Shown: in pieces, positions 25,022 through 35,879 of the stretch | Position numbering within the stretch: the first letter of the stretch is position 1 | Layout of the letters: every line of letters starts with the position of its first letter | DNA from: Deltaproteobacteria bacterium | Lineage (GTDB): Bacteria > Desulfobacterota > DSM-4660 > Desulfatiglandales > HGW-15 | Assembly (NCBI GenBank): GCA_016932115.1 | Contig: JAFGDM010000150.1 | Span: 1 to 35,879 of the forward strand | Direction: 5' to 3' | DNA length: 35,879 bases | Program-made: the position numbers and the translations under genes | Notes under the pieces: model-generated | Database searches by the model: none | Told to the model about the DNA's origin: nothing | Seen by the model: the letters and a program-made list of their open reading frames with translations, nothing else

Positions 25022-25100
25022 GCCGGCTTCTGCCGGCGCGTGTTTAAAAAATTACTCGGTTTTCCACTGTCCTAACTCGACCGGAAGCGGTAAACCGCTA
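25022..25100 (-). other. Two hairpins between acsD and acsB
   Basis: The first hairpin, AGCGG-TTTA-CCGCT on the minus strand (plus 25086-25099), overlaps the acsD stop codon. The second, GCCGGC with an AGAA loop (plus 25022-25037), is very stable but lacks a T-run, so it is unlikely to be a full terminator. They may stabilise or process the message between the two cistrons. Confidence 0.5.
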
Positions 25101-26672
25101 AGAATGCTTGTGCATGCGCGCAAGTTCACGGGTCAAGCGGTCTACCACGCTTTCGGGTTCAAACGTCGGCGGCTTGGCCGTCTTGATTTCTTTTTCAACC
25201 CGGGCGACCTCTTCCACCTTCTTTTCGACTCCGACTTTCACTTTTTCTGAAGCCCTCTTTTTCCGCAGGGCTTCAAGATCATCCTTCTCCTTGGCCTTGG
25301 CGTCTGCTTCGGCCTTCTTCTTAGCCTCTGCTTCAGCTTGAGCTTTCGCCTCTGCTTCAGCCTTAGCCTTAGCGTCCGCTTCAGCCTTTGCTTTAGCCTC
25401 CTGCTCAGCTTTGGCCTTGGCGTCTGCTTCAGCCTTCTTCTTGGCCTCTGCTTCAGCTTGAGCTTTCGCCTCTGCTTCAGCCTTGGCCGAAATCTCTTGC
25501 TTTCCCTTGACCTCGGGCTTCAGTTCCACCACCTTTTCAGACGCCTTGGGAGGAGCCTTCGGCTTTTCCTCGGCCTTTGGAGCCGCTGCCTTTTCTTTGG
25601 GTTTGGGCGCTGGAGGAGTCTCTTCTTTACCCACGGCCAGAACCGGTTCAGGAGCAAGAGGTGCAAGATCGACCTCTTGAAGTTTGAGCTTCTTAGAAAT
25701 CCCCTGAACATCAGCCATAGACCCGCCGTCGAGCATCCGCTCAATATAGGCCCGGATAAGCCGAACGGTTTCCGGATGCCTGAGAATCACGGCATCGGCG
25801 CCCGCAAGCAGATAGCACACTGCAGCCGTGACCTCCATGGATATGCCCCTCTTCTCGGGGTCCCCCAGGTTTGGAGCGCTCTCTATGGGCTGGCCGGCTT
25901 CCTTGCACTTCCAAACTTCGTTTCCAACGTTTGCGATGATTGGGATTTGAAGTTTATCATCTTCCTGGGTCAAAGCGGCCATGCGGATTCTTTCCATCAC
26001 GGAATAGGAGTACTCGAGGCCGTAACCCAGTCCTCCGGTGGTGGGATCTATGATGATCTTATCAGAACCGACACCCAGATTGCCGAGAAGAATGTTGAGC
26101 TGCTTAGCGAGGTTTACATCGATAGGCGAAGAAGCCACAATCCTTTGTCCGTAAGCAAGAGCACTGGCACCCACCCCTTTATAATTCGCCTCTTCCACAG
26201 GGGAAAGACCAAGGTTCCTGTCCTGACAGGTTTCTGCGATTTTCTTCAGGACTTCTTCATCCTTCTGATTGTCTGCCGTTCCCCAAAGTACCACAGGGAC
26301 CTTCACGGAATCCGCCACTCTCTTGACCACCCCTGCGGCTTCGTCCGCTCCTCTGTTGATGCCGTTGGGGTCCGTGCTCTTTAGTTGAATCACAATAAGA
26401 TCAGCACCGTACTCTTCGACGCATTTCTTCGCCCAGGCTTCAGGTGAACCTATCACGTCCTTGAAAGGCTCCACCACCGCAGCCGGCCATTCTTTTGACG
26501 GGTCGTAATCCCAGATTTCCATGGCAATTTTTGGAGGATTCGGCATGGATCCTTCAAAAAGATAAAACGGGTAAGAATCCGCTCCTCCAAGGGTGACGGC
26601 CCTGTCACCCGTTCCGATGGTTGTCGTCCCTATTTTGCCGGAATAGGGTTGTTTTGGAATTTGAAAGGCCAA
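25098..26672 (-). CDS. acsD: Corrinoid/iron-sulfur protein small subunit with long Ala/Lys/Glu-rich tail
   Basis: A 524-residue protein. Residues 1 to about 335 are the TIM-barrel small subunit of the corrinoid/iron-sulfur protein (ADLIVIQLKSTDPNG, IIIDPTTGGLGYGLEYSYSV, GADAVILRHPETV). Known homologues are about 310-325 residues, so some 190 residues are extra: a Pro/Lys/Ala linker (340-395), a KAEAEAKA-type helical repeat (396-462) and a charged end (463-524) finishing VVDRLTRELARMHKHS. TTG 26672 is chosen as start because AAGGAGG lies 8 nt upstream; an earlier TTG would place that site inside the gene. First gene of the acs operon. Confidence 0.93.
   Translation of the reverse strand: MAFQIPKQPYSGKIGTTTIGTGDRAVTLGGADSYPFYLFEGSMPNPPKIAMEIWDYDPSKEWPAAVVEPFKDVIGSPEAWAKKCVEEYGADLIVIQLKSTDPNGINRGADEAAGVVKRVADSVKVPVVLWGTADNQKDEEVLKKIAETCQDRNLGLSPVEEANYKGVGASALAYGQRIVASSPIDVNLAKQLNILLGNLGVGSDKIIIDPTTGGLGYGLEYSYSVMERIRMAALTQEDDKLQIPIIANVGNEVWKCKEAGQPIESAPNLGDPEKRGISMEVTAAVCYLLAGADAVILRHPETVRLIRAYIERMLDGGSMADVQGISKKLKLQEVDLAPLAPEPVLAVGKEETPPAPKPKEKAAAPKAEEKPKAPPKASEKVVELKPEVKGKQEISAKAEAEAKAQAEAEAKKKAEADAKAKAEQEAKAKAEADAKAKAEAEAKAQAEAEAKKKAEADAKAKEKDDLEALRKKRASEKVKVGVEKKVEEVARVEKEIKTAKPPTFEPESVVDRLTRELARMHKHS
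25291..25488 (-). repeat. 120-bp-period direct repeat in the acsD tail
   Basis: Positions 25291-25368 and 25411-25488 match over 78 nt with three differences, exactly 120 nt (40 codons) apart. They encode two copies of the KAEAEAKAQAEAEAKKKAEA helix. The near-identity at DNA level points to a recent in-frame duplication, and copy number may vary between strains. Confidence 0.9.
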
Positions 26673-26958
26673 TTTCCATCCCTCCTTTTTCAAATACAAT
26701 CATTACCGCACGCGTATATTGCAAATCCCTCTTATTGCGTTGAAACACGGCCCTATCCACCACCTTCACTCCCACCCCGGGATCTTAAATTTAATCCGTC
26801 CCTGGAGGGAAGTGAAAATCACCTTCCAGCACTCAGTAGTAGCCTATCTTGTTTGGATCGCTTGGGGCCGGCCTGGAACTAAGGTAATCCCCACCGCGGA
26901 ACCACGAAGATACACCGTTTCCCTTGAGGCAAAAAAACCGCCCGCCCTTGCATGGGAA
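26673..26958 (-). promoter_or_regulatory. Long untranslated leader of the acs operon
   Basis: About 285 nt lie between the predicted transcription start and the acsD TTG, with no gene in them. Local structure includes the hairpin GGAAGGTGA-TTT-TCACTTCC (plus 26808-26827, one bulge). I do not recognise a known riboswitch class. The only small frame with an ATG, 24 codons at 26879-26953, lacks a ribosome site. The leader is long enough to host RNA-based control. Confidence 0.45.
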
Positions 26959-27964: not shown

Positions 27965-29281
27965 ATGAGTAGGTTAAAAAAAAAAGAAATATGGGAGCAA
28001 ATCATCGCATCCTTGGAGTCTACACTGCAAAAAGAGGAATTTCAAACCTGGTTTTCTCGGGCCTCACTTAAAAAGCTTGACGAGACCGTCGCGATTATCG
28101 ATGTCCCTCATAAGTTCATCGCAACTTGGCTTAACGAAAATTATTTAATTGAAATTAAGAAAACCATTAAAAAACTCACAAAAAGCGCCCCAACTATTCA
28201 TTTTACATTTGAGATCCCGCCACTGCTTCAAACGCTCTACCGCACCAAACCGCAATTTCCTTTTCACCCATCAACAAATCACGGACTTAATCGAGATTTT
28301 ACCTTTGATAGGCTAGCTACAGCGGACAGCAACTCTTTTGCCTGCAGCTCAGCTCATGCTCTCGCCGGAAACGGTGCAGAAAAATATTCCCTCTTATATA
28401 TCTTTTCAAAACCTGGGCTTGGGAAAACCCATTTGCTTCATGCTATAGGGAATCATCGCCTCAAAAAGGACCCCATCTGCAAGGTTCGCTATTTATCCTC
28501 CAACACCTTTACTTCGGAATTCACTTATGCCGTCAATACTGAAAGATTGGATCTCTTTCGAGAACAATACTGCAATCTCGATCTTCTTCTTTTCGATGAT
28601 ATCCATTTATTGGACCACAGTGAAAAAATCCAGGAAGAATTTCTCTCTATCTTTAATTCACTGTACAGTGAAAAGAAGCAAATCGTTATTACCGGTAACA
28701 GTCTTCCTAATGTAATGAAAAACCTTAAGCCCGAGTTGAAGTCGCGCTTAGGGTGGGGGTTACTCACTGAAATCCACACGCCCGAGCAACAAGTAAAAAT
28801 GAACATTGTCAGGACTAAGGTATCGGAAATCTCTTTGGATATTCCTGATGATGTGCTTTTTTTTCTAGCCAACGCAAACAGTAATATCAAAACCCTTAAA
28901 AAGAATCTTCTAAAGCTCGAAACCTATTCATCAATGAGCGATGGAAAAATAACAATGTCCGTAGTCAAAGCTCTAATAAAAGACATGGAAAGCGCCGGAA
29001 TTAGTCTGGAAGAGATTATTAACACAACAGCAGGCTACTTTAATATATCCGTAGCAAATCTTCTTTCCCATAAAAAAAACCACCTTTACGCTTACCCAAG
29101 GCAACTGGCTATGTACTTAGCCCGGCTACATACAGGGCTTTCCTATAAGGATATCGGTCGGTCTTTTAAAAAGAAGGATCATTCAACCGTGATCTATGCC
29201 ATAAAGCGTATAGAAGGGTTAAAAACAAAAGACAGCAACATCGGTGACGATCTTAGAATCATAGAAAGCTTATTGGGGTGA
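27965..29281 (+). CDS. dnaA: Chromosomal replication initiator DnaA, divergent
   Basis: A 438-residue protein with the DnaA layout: domain I (about 5-80), short linker, AAA+ domain III (about 110-330) and DNA-binding domain IV (about 345-438). Kept features are GLGKTHLLHAIGN (151-163), Walker B LLLFDDIHLL (207-216), ELKSRLGWGL (257-266) and the helix-turn-helix PRQLAMYLARLHTGLSYKDIG. Several near-invariant positions differ: the first Walker A glycine is Ser148, the sensor-II arginine of NVRELEGAL is Lys309 (NIKTLKKNL), and GGRDHTTV is KKKDHSTV (402-409). There is no clear ribosome site. The gene is more A/T rich than its neighbours. Position next to dnaN and gyrB makes the assignment secure. 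Confidence 0.93.
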   Translation: MSRLKKKEIWEQIIASLESTLQKEEFQTWFSRASLKKLDETVAIIDVPHKFIATWLNENYLIEIKKTIKKLTKSAPTIHFTFEIPPLLQTLYRTKPQFPFHPSTNHGLNRDFTFDRLATADSNSFACSSAHALAGNGAEKYSLLYIFSKPGLGKTHLLHAIGNHRLKKDPICKVRYLSSNTFTSEFTYAVNTERLDLFREQYCNLDLLLFDDIHLLDHSEKIQEEFLSIFNSLYSEKKQIVITGNSLPNVMKNLKPELKSRLGWGLLTEIHTPEQQVKMNIVRTKVSEISLDIPDDVLFFLANANSNIKTLKKNLLKLETYSSMSDGKITMSVVKALIKDMESAGISLEEIINTTAGYFNISVANLLSHKKNHLYAYPRQLAMYLARLHTGLSYKDIGRSFKKKDHSTVIYAIKRIEGLKTKDSNIGDDLRIIESLLG

Positions 29282-29490
29282 AGCAAATTTTTGACATTTT
29301 TTATGAATTTCTCTCATCACTCCCGCGTGATTACCAAGAAAAACGATTTTTCAACTCCAGCTTGTTAGGATTGTCGAAAAAACAGCAAATTATCAAAGAT
29401 AAAGACTTAATGTTAATACAGTAGCTTATTTGAGTTTTAAACAATTCATTATGGTTATTAATAGTGTTATTATCTATTAAGGAGGAAATA
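29282..29490. other. A/T-rich dnaA-dnaN intergenic region, candidate part of oriC
   Basis: These 209 nt are strongly A/T rich and carry no gene. The dnaA-dnaN gap is a common origin site, and gene orientation diverges nearby. However, I find no TTATCCACA box or close match; the nearest, TTATCAAAG near 29390, differs at three or more positions. A 7-bp inverted repeat, TTAATAG (29458-29464) with CTATTAA (29474-29480), lies just before the dnaN ribosome site AAGGAGG. Confidence 0.35.
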
Positions 29491-33004
<3,514 letters not shown>

Positions 33005-33042
33005 AATGAAATCTTGGGGAACAGGTTTCATGGAGAAAACGA

Positions 33043-35463
33043 ATGGTTGAGAACTTCATCCTCGAGAGCGTAAACATCGAAGAAGAGATGAAGAAGTCCT
33101 ATCTTGAATACTCGATGAGTGTCATCGTGGGAAGAGCTTTACCGGACATCCGCGACGGGCTTAAGCCCGTGCATCGCCGGGTGCTCTTTGCCATGCACGA
33201 GATGCACAATACCTTCAACAGGCCCTACAAAAAATCGGCCCGTGTTGTAGGAGATGTGATCGGAAAATACCATCCCCATGGGGATACGGCCGTGTATGAC
33301 ACGATCGTAAGGCTCGCGCAGGACTTTTCTATGCGATACCCACTGGTAGACGGCCAGGGAAACTTCGGCTCGGTAGACGGAGATCCTCCTGCGGCGATGC
33401 GCTATACTGAAGTCAGGATGACAAGGCTGGCCCAGAACTTTTTGAACGATATCGACAAAGAGACCGTCGATTTTATGCCCAACTATGATGCCTCACTCCT
33501 CGAGCCGCTTATTCTTCCCACCTCAATACCGAATCTTCTTATCAATGGATCTTCGGGCATTGCGGTGGGCATGGCCACGAACGTGCCCCCTCATAACTTA
33601 AGCGAAGTGTGTGATGCCGTTACCTTCCTCATCGATCATCCTGATAGCGCCGTCAACGACCTGGTAAAAATTATACCTGGGCCTGATTTTCCCACCGCCG
33701 GCTTTATTCTGGCGAGCAAGGGAATTCGGGAGGCCTATGAAACAGGTAGGGGCGTGATTAAGATCCGGGCGCGGGCTTTCATTGAGAAGGCCGGTCAAAA
33801 CAGGGAACGGATCATCATTTCCGAACTTCCCTATCAGGTGAACAAGGCCAAGCTTCAGGAAAGAATGGCCGAATTGGTAAAGGAAAGAAAGATTGAAGGA
33901 ATCACCGATATTCGAGACGAATCCGACAGAGACGGGATGAGGGTTGCCATCGAGGTGAGAAGGGACGCCAATCCTCATGTCATTTTGAACCGCCTTTACA
34001 AATTCACACAAATGGAAATTTCTTTTGGGATCATCCTGCTTGCCATCGTGAAGGGAAGACCCCAGATTCTCAATCTCAAAGAAATCCTGGAAAAGTTCGT
34101 AGAACATCGGCGTGAGATTGTCGTCAGGAGAACGATTTTTGATTTGAGGAAGGCTGAAGAGAGGGCCCATATCCTGGAGGGGCTCAAGAAAGCACTGGAC
34201 TTTCTTGATGAGGTTATCGAGGTGATCCGCTCATCGGCGGATCCTAAGGAGGCGAAATCAAGGCTGATGGCTGATTTTACGCTTAGCGAAATCCAGGCAC
34301 AGGCCATTCTCGATATGAGGCTTCAAAGACTCACAGGACTGGAAAGGGAGAAGATCACTTCCGAGTACCTGGACTTGATCAAGAGCATTACGAAATACAA
34401 AGCCGTTCTTGAAAGCCCGGCCATGGTTCTTCAAATTATCAAGGAAGAGATGAAGGAAATCCGGGATCGGCACGGTGACGATAGGAGAACTGAGATCCTG
34501 CACGAATCGGGGGACATTGATGTTGAAGACCTCATTGCCGAAGAAGACATGGTCGTAACCATAAGCCATGAGGGATACATCAAGCGCAACCCCATCAGCC
34601 TTTACAGGGCTCAACGTCGGGGCGGTAAGGGATTGACCGGGGTCAAACCCAAAGAGGAAGACTTTGTGGAGCTCTTCTTTGTAGGGTCATCCCACGATTA
34701 TCTTCTATTTTTCACCAACAAGGGGCGCGTTTATTGGAAAAAAGTCCATGAAGTACCGGAGGGAGGCCGCGTGTCACGGGGCAAGGCGATCGTAAACCTC
34801 CTGGAGCTGCAAAGAGGAGAAAAGGTGGCCACCACCCTGGCGATCAGGGATTTCAGCGGGGGTAAATACGTAGTAATGGCCAGCAAGGGAGGGCTCGTGA
34901 AGAAAACGGAACTTACCGCCTACGCAAACCCGAGATCGGGCGGAATTGCAGGGATCAGAATCAAGGATGAAGATGAGCTCATAGGCGTAAGGGTATCCAC
35001 CGGGTCTCAGGATATTTTTCTGACAACCCGGCAAGGAAAGTCCATCCGGTTCAGCGAGACGGAAATCAGGGAGATGGGACGGGTCGCCGCAGGCAATATC
35101 GGGATCAGAATGGAACCGGGTGATGAAGTGGTGGGGATGGAAGTTCTGGAAGAGGGCGCTACGATCCTGACGGTCACGGAAAAAGGATACGGCAAGCGCA
35201 CGAGAACCGAAGAATATAGGATCCAGGGTAGAGGCGGTAAAGGCATTCTGACTATCAAGACCAGTGAACGAAATGGACCGGTGGTGTATGCTTACCAGGT
35301 TACGGACCAGGATCAGCTCATGATCATCACCGAACAAGGCAAGATCATTCGCCTCAGGGCGGCGGACATCTCGGTTATAGGCCGTAACACACAGGGCGTG
35401 AAGCTTATCGACCTCGGAGAGGGGGAAAAGGTGGTTGCCGTGGCCAGGGTCGTAGAAGAATGA
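33043..35463 (+). CDS. gyrA: DNA gyrase subunit A
   Basis: An 806-residue breakage-reunion subunit. Catalytic Tyr121 lies in [10 protein letters not shown]. The quinolone region reads [14 protein letters not shown], with Thr82 at the position of E. coli Ser83 and Asp86 kept at the Asp87 position; Thr is the natural residue in many bacteria. The C-terminal wrapping domain begins with the GyrA box QRRGGKG (524-530), which distinguishes gyrase from topoisomerase IV. ATG 33043 has GGAGAA upstream and follows gyrB by 38 nt. No terminator is visible after the gene. Confidence 0.98.
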
Positions 35464-35726
35464 AGCCGAAGATAGCAGGCTGTATGTACTAGACAGATCG
35501 TTTCCTTGATTTTGAACTCTAAGGAGAAATCCAAAAGCGAGCCGGAAAGTGTCGCGTTACGAATCAGGAACGCCGCAGCAGACGATCAATATAATAAATC
35601 TTCATCATTCAAAATTCGTAACAATTTGCTAACGTTCAAAAGTGTTTGCAAGACTTACAAAATGATCTCAGGCAGCATTCCGCACGCCGGACAGGGCTGG
35701 GGTCTTTTTCGGAGTGACTGGCGGTA
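35464..35726. other. Intergenic stretch after gyrA
   Basis: These 263 nt contain no convincing gene; a 73-codon open frame (35506-35727) lacks a ribosome site and recognisable content. The first 200 nt are of ordinary to A/T-rich composition, then the sequence becomes markedly G/C rich from about 35665. That change may mark the edge of an inserted element leading into the structured RNA. Confidence 0.4.
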
Positions 35727-35879
35727 GGGCGCCGTCTTTTCACGGTTTATCTGTGGGGGAAACCCCTGGCCCCAAGCGCATGCGAGGGGAAGAGCGGGAG
35801 GGGGCAGAACTCCCCCGTAGATAAGCCGTAGAAAAGACCAGCCCGGTAGACTAAGCCGCCCCCGGCGGCCTTGGAACGC
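35727..35879 (+). ncRNA. Structured RNA candidate, HEARO/omega-RNA-like, truncated by window end
   Basis: A long hairpin pairs 35734-35760 with 35811-35838: 27 base pairs, three of them G-U, with a single bulged A at 35830. GGGC (35727-35730) pairs with GCCC (35841-35844) below it. The wobble pairs keep the stem only if the plus strand is the RNA. The loop holds a second hairpin closed by CCCC (35770-35773) and GGGG (35786-35789). A third hairpin, GCCGCC-CCC-GGCGGC, follows at 35855-35869. From memory, the large 5' hairpin with a C/U-rich strand, then a CAG..GGUAGAC linker and a GC hairpin ending GGAACGC, resembles the omega-RNA of IscB nucleases (Rfam HEARO). Family assignment is tentative; a structured RNA is well supported. 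Confidence 0.5.

Follow-up and report, generated by a model that had tools for sequence, protein, structure and literature searches.

Bacterial MITEs are usually viewed as empty shells, in which the ends are defining and the insides are variable. Bacteria commonly carry both MITEs and stem-loop repeats, and template switching can equalise the arms of a palindrome. Elements of the IS66 family are characterised by 8-bp duplications and by ends starting with GTAA, and 8-bp duplications together with terminal repeats are typical of double-strand DDE transposons. HEARO, the omega-RNA of IscB, rides a mobile element, and its protein is frequently not encoded alongside. MITEs of bacterial IS elements include MITEAba12 (PMC6382973), and those of Coxiella have been discussed together with small RNAs (PMC5896051). 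The ERIC, NEMIS and YPAL families of stem-loop repeats have been surveyed, and Yersinia ERIC was reported to fold into RNA hairpins and thereby to regulate the genes next to it (PMC2267715).

The repeat described here lies at the end of the window (the whole stretch of DNA analysed, 35,879 nucleotides) and is of a kind already known, being a foldback MITE and a bacterial stem-loop repeat. In common with MITEs of bacterial IS elements, it is short and non-coding, with terminal inverted repeats, target duplications, many copies and a transposase presumably supplied in trans, whereas its conserved, strand-specific structured core, found in several shells and across bacterial families, sets it apart. 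Long intergenic hairpins and many copies are shared with ERIC, NEMIS and YPAL, but the large conserved internal loops, the covariation and the several shells are not, and no sequence relation to these families was established. The 8-bp duplications and the ends of one shell, denoted as A/F, suggest a link between the repeat and the IS66 family, although the element is without a transposase. Similar to HEARO (RF02033), it has a structured RNA (putative here) on a mobile element; unlike HEARO, it has no covariance-model match, no guide and, in the copy-rich hosts, no IscB. Within our limited search of Rfam and the literature, a strand-specific conserved core common to several shells had no precedent, and papers sought by the core sequence or by subject did not describe this element.

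The window is the entire contig G000:C180 of a 323-contig assembly, and its end falls within the repeat. What lies ~165 bp after gyrA is a non-autonomous foldback MITE of ~300-330 bp, of which the window contains the left ~250 bp. Using 35660-35879 as a query, we found nine places in the same genome with 87-100% identity, mostly at contig ends, where matches concentrate because assemblies break at repeats. The left terminal inverted repeat (CGTAACAATTTGCTAACGTTCAAAAGTGTTTGCA, 35617-35650, + strand) belongs to a shell denoted as shell B and has 11 further sites in the same genome, with 0 for the control. The motif GGTANCGTTCAAAAGTGTT occurs there 12 times with up to two mismatches (reversed control, 0). 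Public genomes contain at least 111 stretches with it, most of them in deltaproteobacterial MAGs. Inverted pairs of this motif are typically ~300 bp apart, and many have identical or near-identical 8-bp flanks. Closed copies with 8-bp target duplications, as expected of IS66-derived MITEs, include L060, L061, L149, L161, L167, L178, L185 and others. The duplications are perfect in the own-genome copies on C265 (AACGAATT, L061) and C305 (AAATTATT, L060), and further ones are AATAATTT (L149), AATCATTT (L178) and AATCAATT (L250, which carries the core). The right end of the window copy is missing, and the duplications come from closed relatives; that of the gyrA copy is predicted to be AACAATTT if the edge is at 35628.

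The terminal repeats, paired ends and duplications together identify a foldback MITE with its left edge at 35617-35628. The original prediction had suggested a possible insertion edge near 35665, where GC content rises. The rise is real (from ~0.27 to ~0.67 across 35590-35740), but the true edge is slightly upstream of it, since the terminal repeat is AT-rich. Homology with closed copies places the edge at 35628, bearing the terminal repeat GCTAACGTTCAAAAGTGTT, and it would be at 35617 if the longer own-genome end belongs to the element. Copies on C150 and C277 extend from the GGCCTTGGAACGC side to ...CAACACTTTTGAACGTTACC, the expected right end. From the terminal repeat to the core, the left arm of the palindromic shell (35651-35700, + strand) is 97% identical in own-genome copies L002 and L004, and in L141, a complete copy, the equivalent arm is base-paired to the right one. 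Intact relatives are ~300 bp; L141 (6212-6507 in MAG Ww165, JAHECH, G013) is complete at 296 bp with 81% identity to the window copy, and L131 (2358-2483) and L146 (69-193) in the same MAG are the L141 shell minus the core hairpin. The closed copies span 99-357 bp with paired terminal repeats and no open reading frame. As such, the repeat has the properties of a bacterial MITE (short, ORF-free, multi-copy and dispersed, with terminal inverted repeats and target duplication), and the mobile-element edge suspected earlier was borne out by the terminal repeat, the dispersed copies and the 8-bp duplications of closed relatives. A phage, plasmid or viral-contig origin was rejected, as there was no match, although the viral scan used a single exact 22-mer and is therefore weak. 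A second foldback repeat of ~300 bp is more abundant in the same genome; it has GTAACACTTYGGCTTTTTGAAA ends, and its long palindromic interior is a different one (GGGGGTCCCTCTCAAAACTGCAAAACGAAGA...). It was seen at L056, L057, L058, L059 and L062 (C148, C74, C191, C115 and C236). Matching ends number >25 across the genome and often coincide with contig ends, and the copies scanned had no Rfam match.

With regard to a transposase partner, the ends of shell A/F match those of an IS66-type element in G004 (L365, 67-2430), which has GTAACAGTTTAGCTCTTTGAAA ends, a PF03050 domain (E 1.9e-37) and zf-IS66, and whose flanks are without matching 8-bp sequences. A gene for a DruA-domain (PF14236) protein overlaps the transposase gene of this element. 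An IS66-type gene in G013 lies after a similar end (L366). Shell B shares with IS66-type ends only the GTAAC start. No IS66, IS256 or ISL3 transposase gene was found in the own genome, and tracing 28 unclosed terminal-repeat matches inward, up to 2.2 kb, gave no autonomous partner for shell B; selected ORFs beyond such repeats proved to be ordinary genes when checked against Pfam or inspected by eye. Nor did the known shell ends have a convincing counterpart at the ISL3 loci searched, and no core was found within IS66/ISL3 loci.

The structured core occupies 35701-35879 (+ strand) and is truncated at the contig end. A covariance model, R1, built from the 31 cores of alignment A1, matches 35701-35871 with 126 bits, the window copy itself being among the 31 sequences. 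From 5' to 3', the core consists of the 5' strand of an outer helix P1, a GUGACUGG..GGUAGG internal loop, a long stem, a tip hairpin, a purine-rich loop, the 3' internal-loop strand and a GGAAC motif. The long stem, supported by sequence, fold and alignment, is formed by 35734-35760 (GTCTTTTCACGGTTTATCTGTGGGGGA) and 35811-35838 (TCCCCCGTAGATAAGCCGTAGAAAAGAC), both on the + strand; the 27 pairs, including three G-U pairs, that had been proposed are present with one bulged base and zero A-C mismatches. Over 35680-35879, the + strand folds at -99.4 kcal/mol (z -3.3, with 1 of 200 shuffles equally good), and the fold of the - strand is weaker at -88.2 kcal/mol (z -2.5). The further GC-rich hairpin noted 3' of the long stem (TAAGCCGCCCCCGGCGGCCTTGGAACGC, 35852-35879, + strand) was also confirmed, and the contig stops there. 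It is an insertion in own-genome copies (window and C82; A1 columns 174-195, L003), and the other aligned cores have CTCGGAAC in its place.

Three G-U pairs in a lone hairpin amount to weak evidence, and the argument is carried by the aligned homologues. In A1, 97.2% of the cells are standard pairs, compared with 91.7 +/- 0.3 in shuffles and 41-54% in controls with the 3' side slid, and 19 base pairs have changed on both sides, compared with 8.9 +/- 1.6. None of 500 shuffles attained any A1 measure, and covariation exceeds both the shuffled and the slid controls. Examples are column pairs 29/158 (C-G 16, G-C 12), 45/145 (A-U 21, G-C 9) and 21/169 (G-C 19, C-G 6). G-U outnumbers A-C by 105 to 15 among A1 cells and by 153 to 32 among parsimony changes on the tree, where both counts, being fitted with the model, lean towards the structure, and cell counts are not independent because the copies share ancestry. 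Considering that the A1 structure was derived from RNA energies, the arm alignment was repeated in a strand-neutral manner. The long stem then gave 90 G-U and 23 A-C, while the 14 nt of shell arm just outside the core, in the same orientation, gave 22 and 23. With ~4:1 in the core against 1:1 in the shell arms, the + strand of the core, and not a DNA palindrome, appears to be selected, and a general mutation bias is an unlikely cause given this internal control. Selection of the plus strand and conservation of the stem through compensatory change, both anticipated by the original prediction, are thus upheld by the G-U excess and the two-sided changes. The columns with the highest conservation include the loops GTGACTGG, GGGAGG, GGGGGA, GGAGGGGGCAAG and CGGGAGCCTCGGAAC, while the tip hairpin varies in sequence and length with pairing retained. 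In distant copies (G197 and part of G011), most of the long stem is replaced and the loops are retained.

Searching with the L141 element, the ~170-nt core was found in 31 of 61 related genomes, and beyond the closest of these the matches were limited to L141 element positions ~66-257, which correspond to the core. R1 found 107, 39, 37, 35, 24 and 5 copies, respectively, in the six genomes counted. When the phylum was sampled evenly and the filters were stricter, the model matched 6 of 297 genomes, and three of these belong to families other than that of the window, a patchy distribution as for mobile DNA. The core is conserved across the whole order and is housed in several different terminal-repeat shells. 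Shell B has ends GGTAACGTTCAAAAGTGTTTGCA and an 8-bp duplication, e.g., AATCAATT/AATCAATT in L250; shell F has ends GTAACACTTTAGCCTTTTGAAA, with flanks GAATGATC/GAATAATC in L257; shell D has ends TACTACTGAGAGCATCAAATAGTTTGCA and TA flanks without an 8-bp duplication; and shell E terminates in CCCACGGGCTCACGCCCGTGG hairpins without a clear terminal repeat. Judged by eye, shell D may be of a TA-duplicating type, and any placing of shell E in an IS type is likewise tentative. In the own genome, the core of C82 lies within another shell with ends TGAGGATCATGGCTCT. Shell B also holds an unrelated interior of ~250 bp with a hairpin around GTGGTCAAATATGTGGGGTTTA...TAAACCCCACATATTT (L089, L095, L104, L149, L161 and L167; CP070673 and other MAGs), implying that one shell hosts several cores.

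For 50 core copies, with genes called by a simple ORF rule, the upstream gene was oriented + in 21 and - in 27 cases, and the downstream gene + in 17 and - in 32. Since neighbours occur in all orientations, the core has no fixed link to a single gene or transcript, and as there was no promoter-like site near the window copy, an RNA would need its own promoter. In the window, four genes lie in a row at 27965-35463 (+ strand), which we take from protein resemblance to be dnaA, dnaN, gyrB and gyrA, with no recF between dnaN and gyrB. Farther upstream, 25098-26699 (- strand) encodes a 533-aa protein with a long, repetitive C-terminal part rich in Ala, Lys and Glu, which presumably resembles an acetyl-CoA decarbonylase/synthase subunit.

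The proposal that the core is an IscB/HEARO omega-RNA, or a TnpB-type guide RNA with its nuclease gene past the contig end, would fit the presence, within a mobile element, of a large 5' hairpin under one-strand selection, but it retains hardly any probability. Neither the window nor nine other copies matched the RF02033 model, even with the E limit raised to 10. Searched against all of Rfam 15, at the gathering score or at this relaxed limit, the same sequences gave only chance matches to eukaryotic miRNA, snoRNA and lncRNA families. The ~16 nt upstream of the stem, which had been proposed as the guide, are conserved core sequence across copies and not variable. Closed copies, at ~300 bp, are too short for the nuclease gene expected beyond the contig end and hold no gene, and own-genome copy C240 (L005) continues into ordinary flank with no RuvC-HNH/IscB-type gene directly after the element. 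Furthermore, one of the 61 related genomes had the IscB domain PF14239, whereas the copy-rich genomes counted (24-107 core copies), which include two single-contig genomes, had none. The sole PF14239 match is L309 (G028:C150:8481-8993), and its genome gave 22 weaker matches to the L141 query as well. A 3'-UTR element of gyrA, acting as a terminator or mRNA stabiliser, would agree with the location on the same strand ~165 bp after the gyrA stop; considering that other copies adjoin many genes in all orientations, such an effect is possible only at the gyrA site, and this explanation is very improbable for the core.

Two explanations require that the core is not an RNA. In an ordinary foldback MITE with a functionless core, the arms would be kept complementary by template-switching repair and recent spread, which is conceivable since such repeats are common and template switching equalises arms. 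However, this predicts no strand bias, while the core shows 4:1 against 1:1 in its own shell arms; moreover, unpaired loops are highly conserved, the tip hairpin changes yet stays paired, and the same core resides in different shells, making a functionless core improbable. Selection as folded single-stranded DNA, e.g., recognised by a transposase or exposed at replication forks, fits better but is still unlikely. It would account for a strand bias without fixed orientation to genes and for the palindromic mobile shell, and as G-T is better tolerated than A-C in DNA hairpins too, the same bias of G-T over A-C would also arise. On the other hand, the 8-bp duplications and terminal repeats of shells B and A/F are typical of double-strand DDE transposons, and the shell arms, the parts that a transposase would read, are unbiased (22:23). 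An RNA thus seems preferable, with single-stranded DNA the less likely form.

Taken all together, the feature is probably a foldback MITE carrying a structured core, likely an RNA, that is common to several transposon shells. The shells would be moved by a transposase supplied in trans, probably of the IS66 type, as suggested by the 8-bp duplications and by the ends that one shell has in common with an IS66-type element. The + strand of the core would be transcribed from a promoter somewhere within the element and fold into a rod-like RNA. A host or transposon protein may bind to its purine-rich internal loops (GUGACUGG..GGGAGG / GGGAGCCUCGGAAC and GGGGGAA / GCGGAGGGGGCAAG), a role suggested solely by the conservation of these loops. 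Because it is kept by different shells with no fixed orientation of neighbours, the core most likely serves the mobile elements, in their spread or in host tolerance, and not gyrA. More tentatively, and with somewhat less than an even chance, the core may be a new structured-RNA class, a passenger module swapped among unrelated shells (8-bp-duplicating, TA-flanked and others) and kept because it is advantageous to any carrier, e.g., by binding a host protein. The repeat also explains the assembly breaks in the genome of the window. In this repeat, conservation resides in the inside, which is under selection on one strand and is combined with different ends. If the core is an RNA, deltaproteobacterial (Desulfobacterota-like) genomes would contain a very abundant RNA family that has yet to be described.
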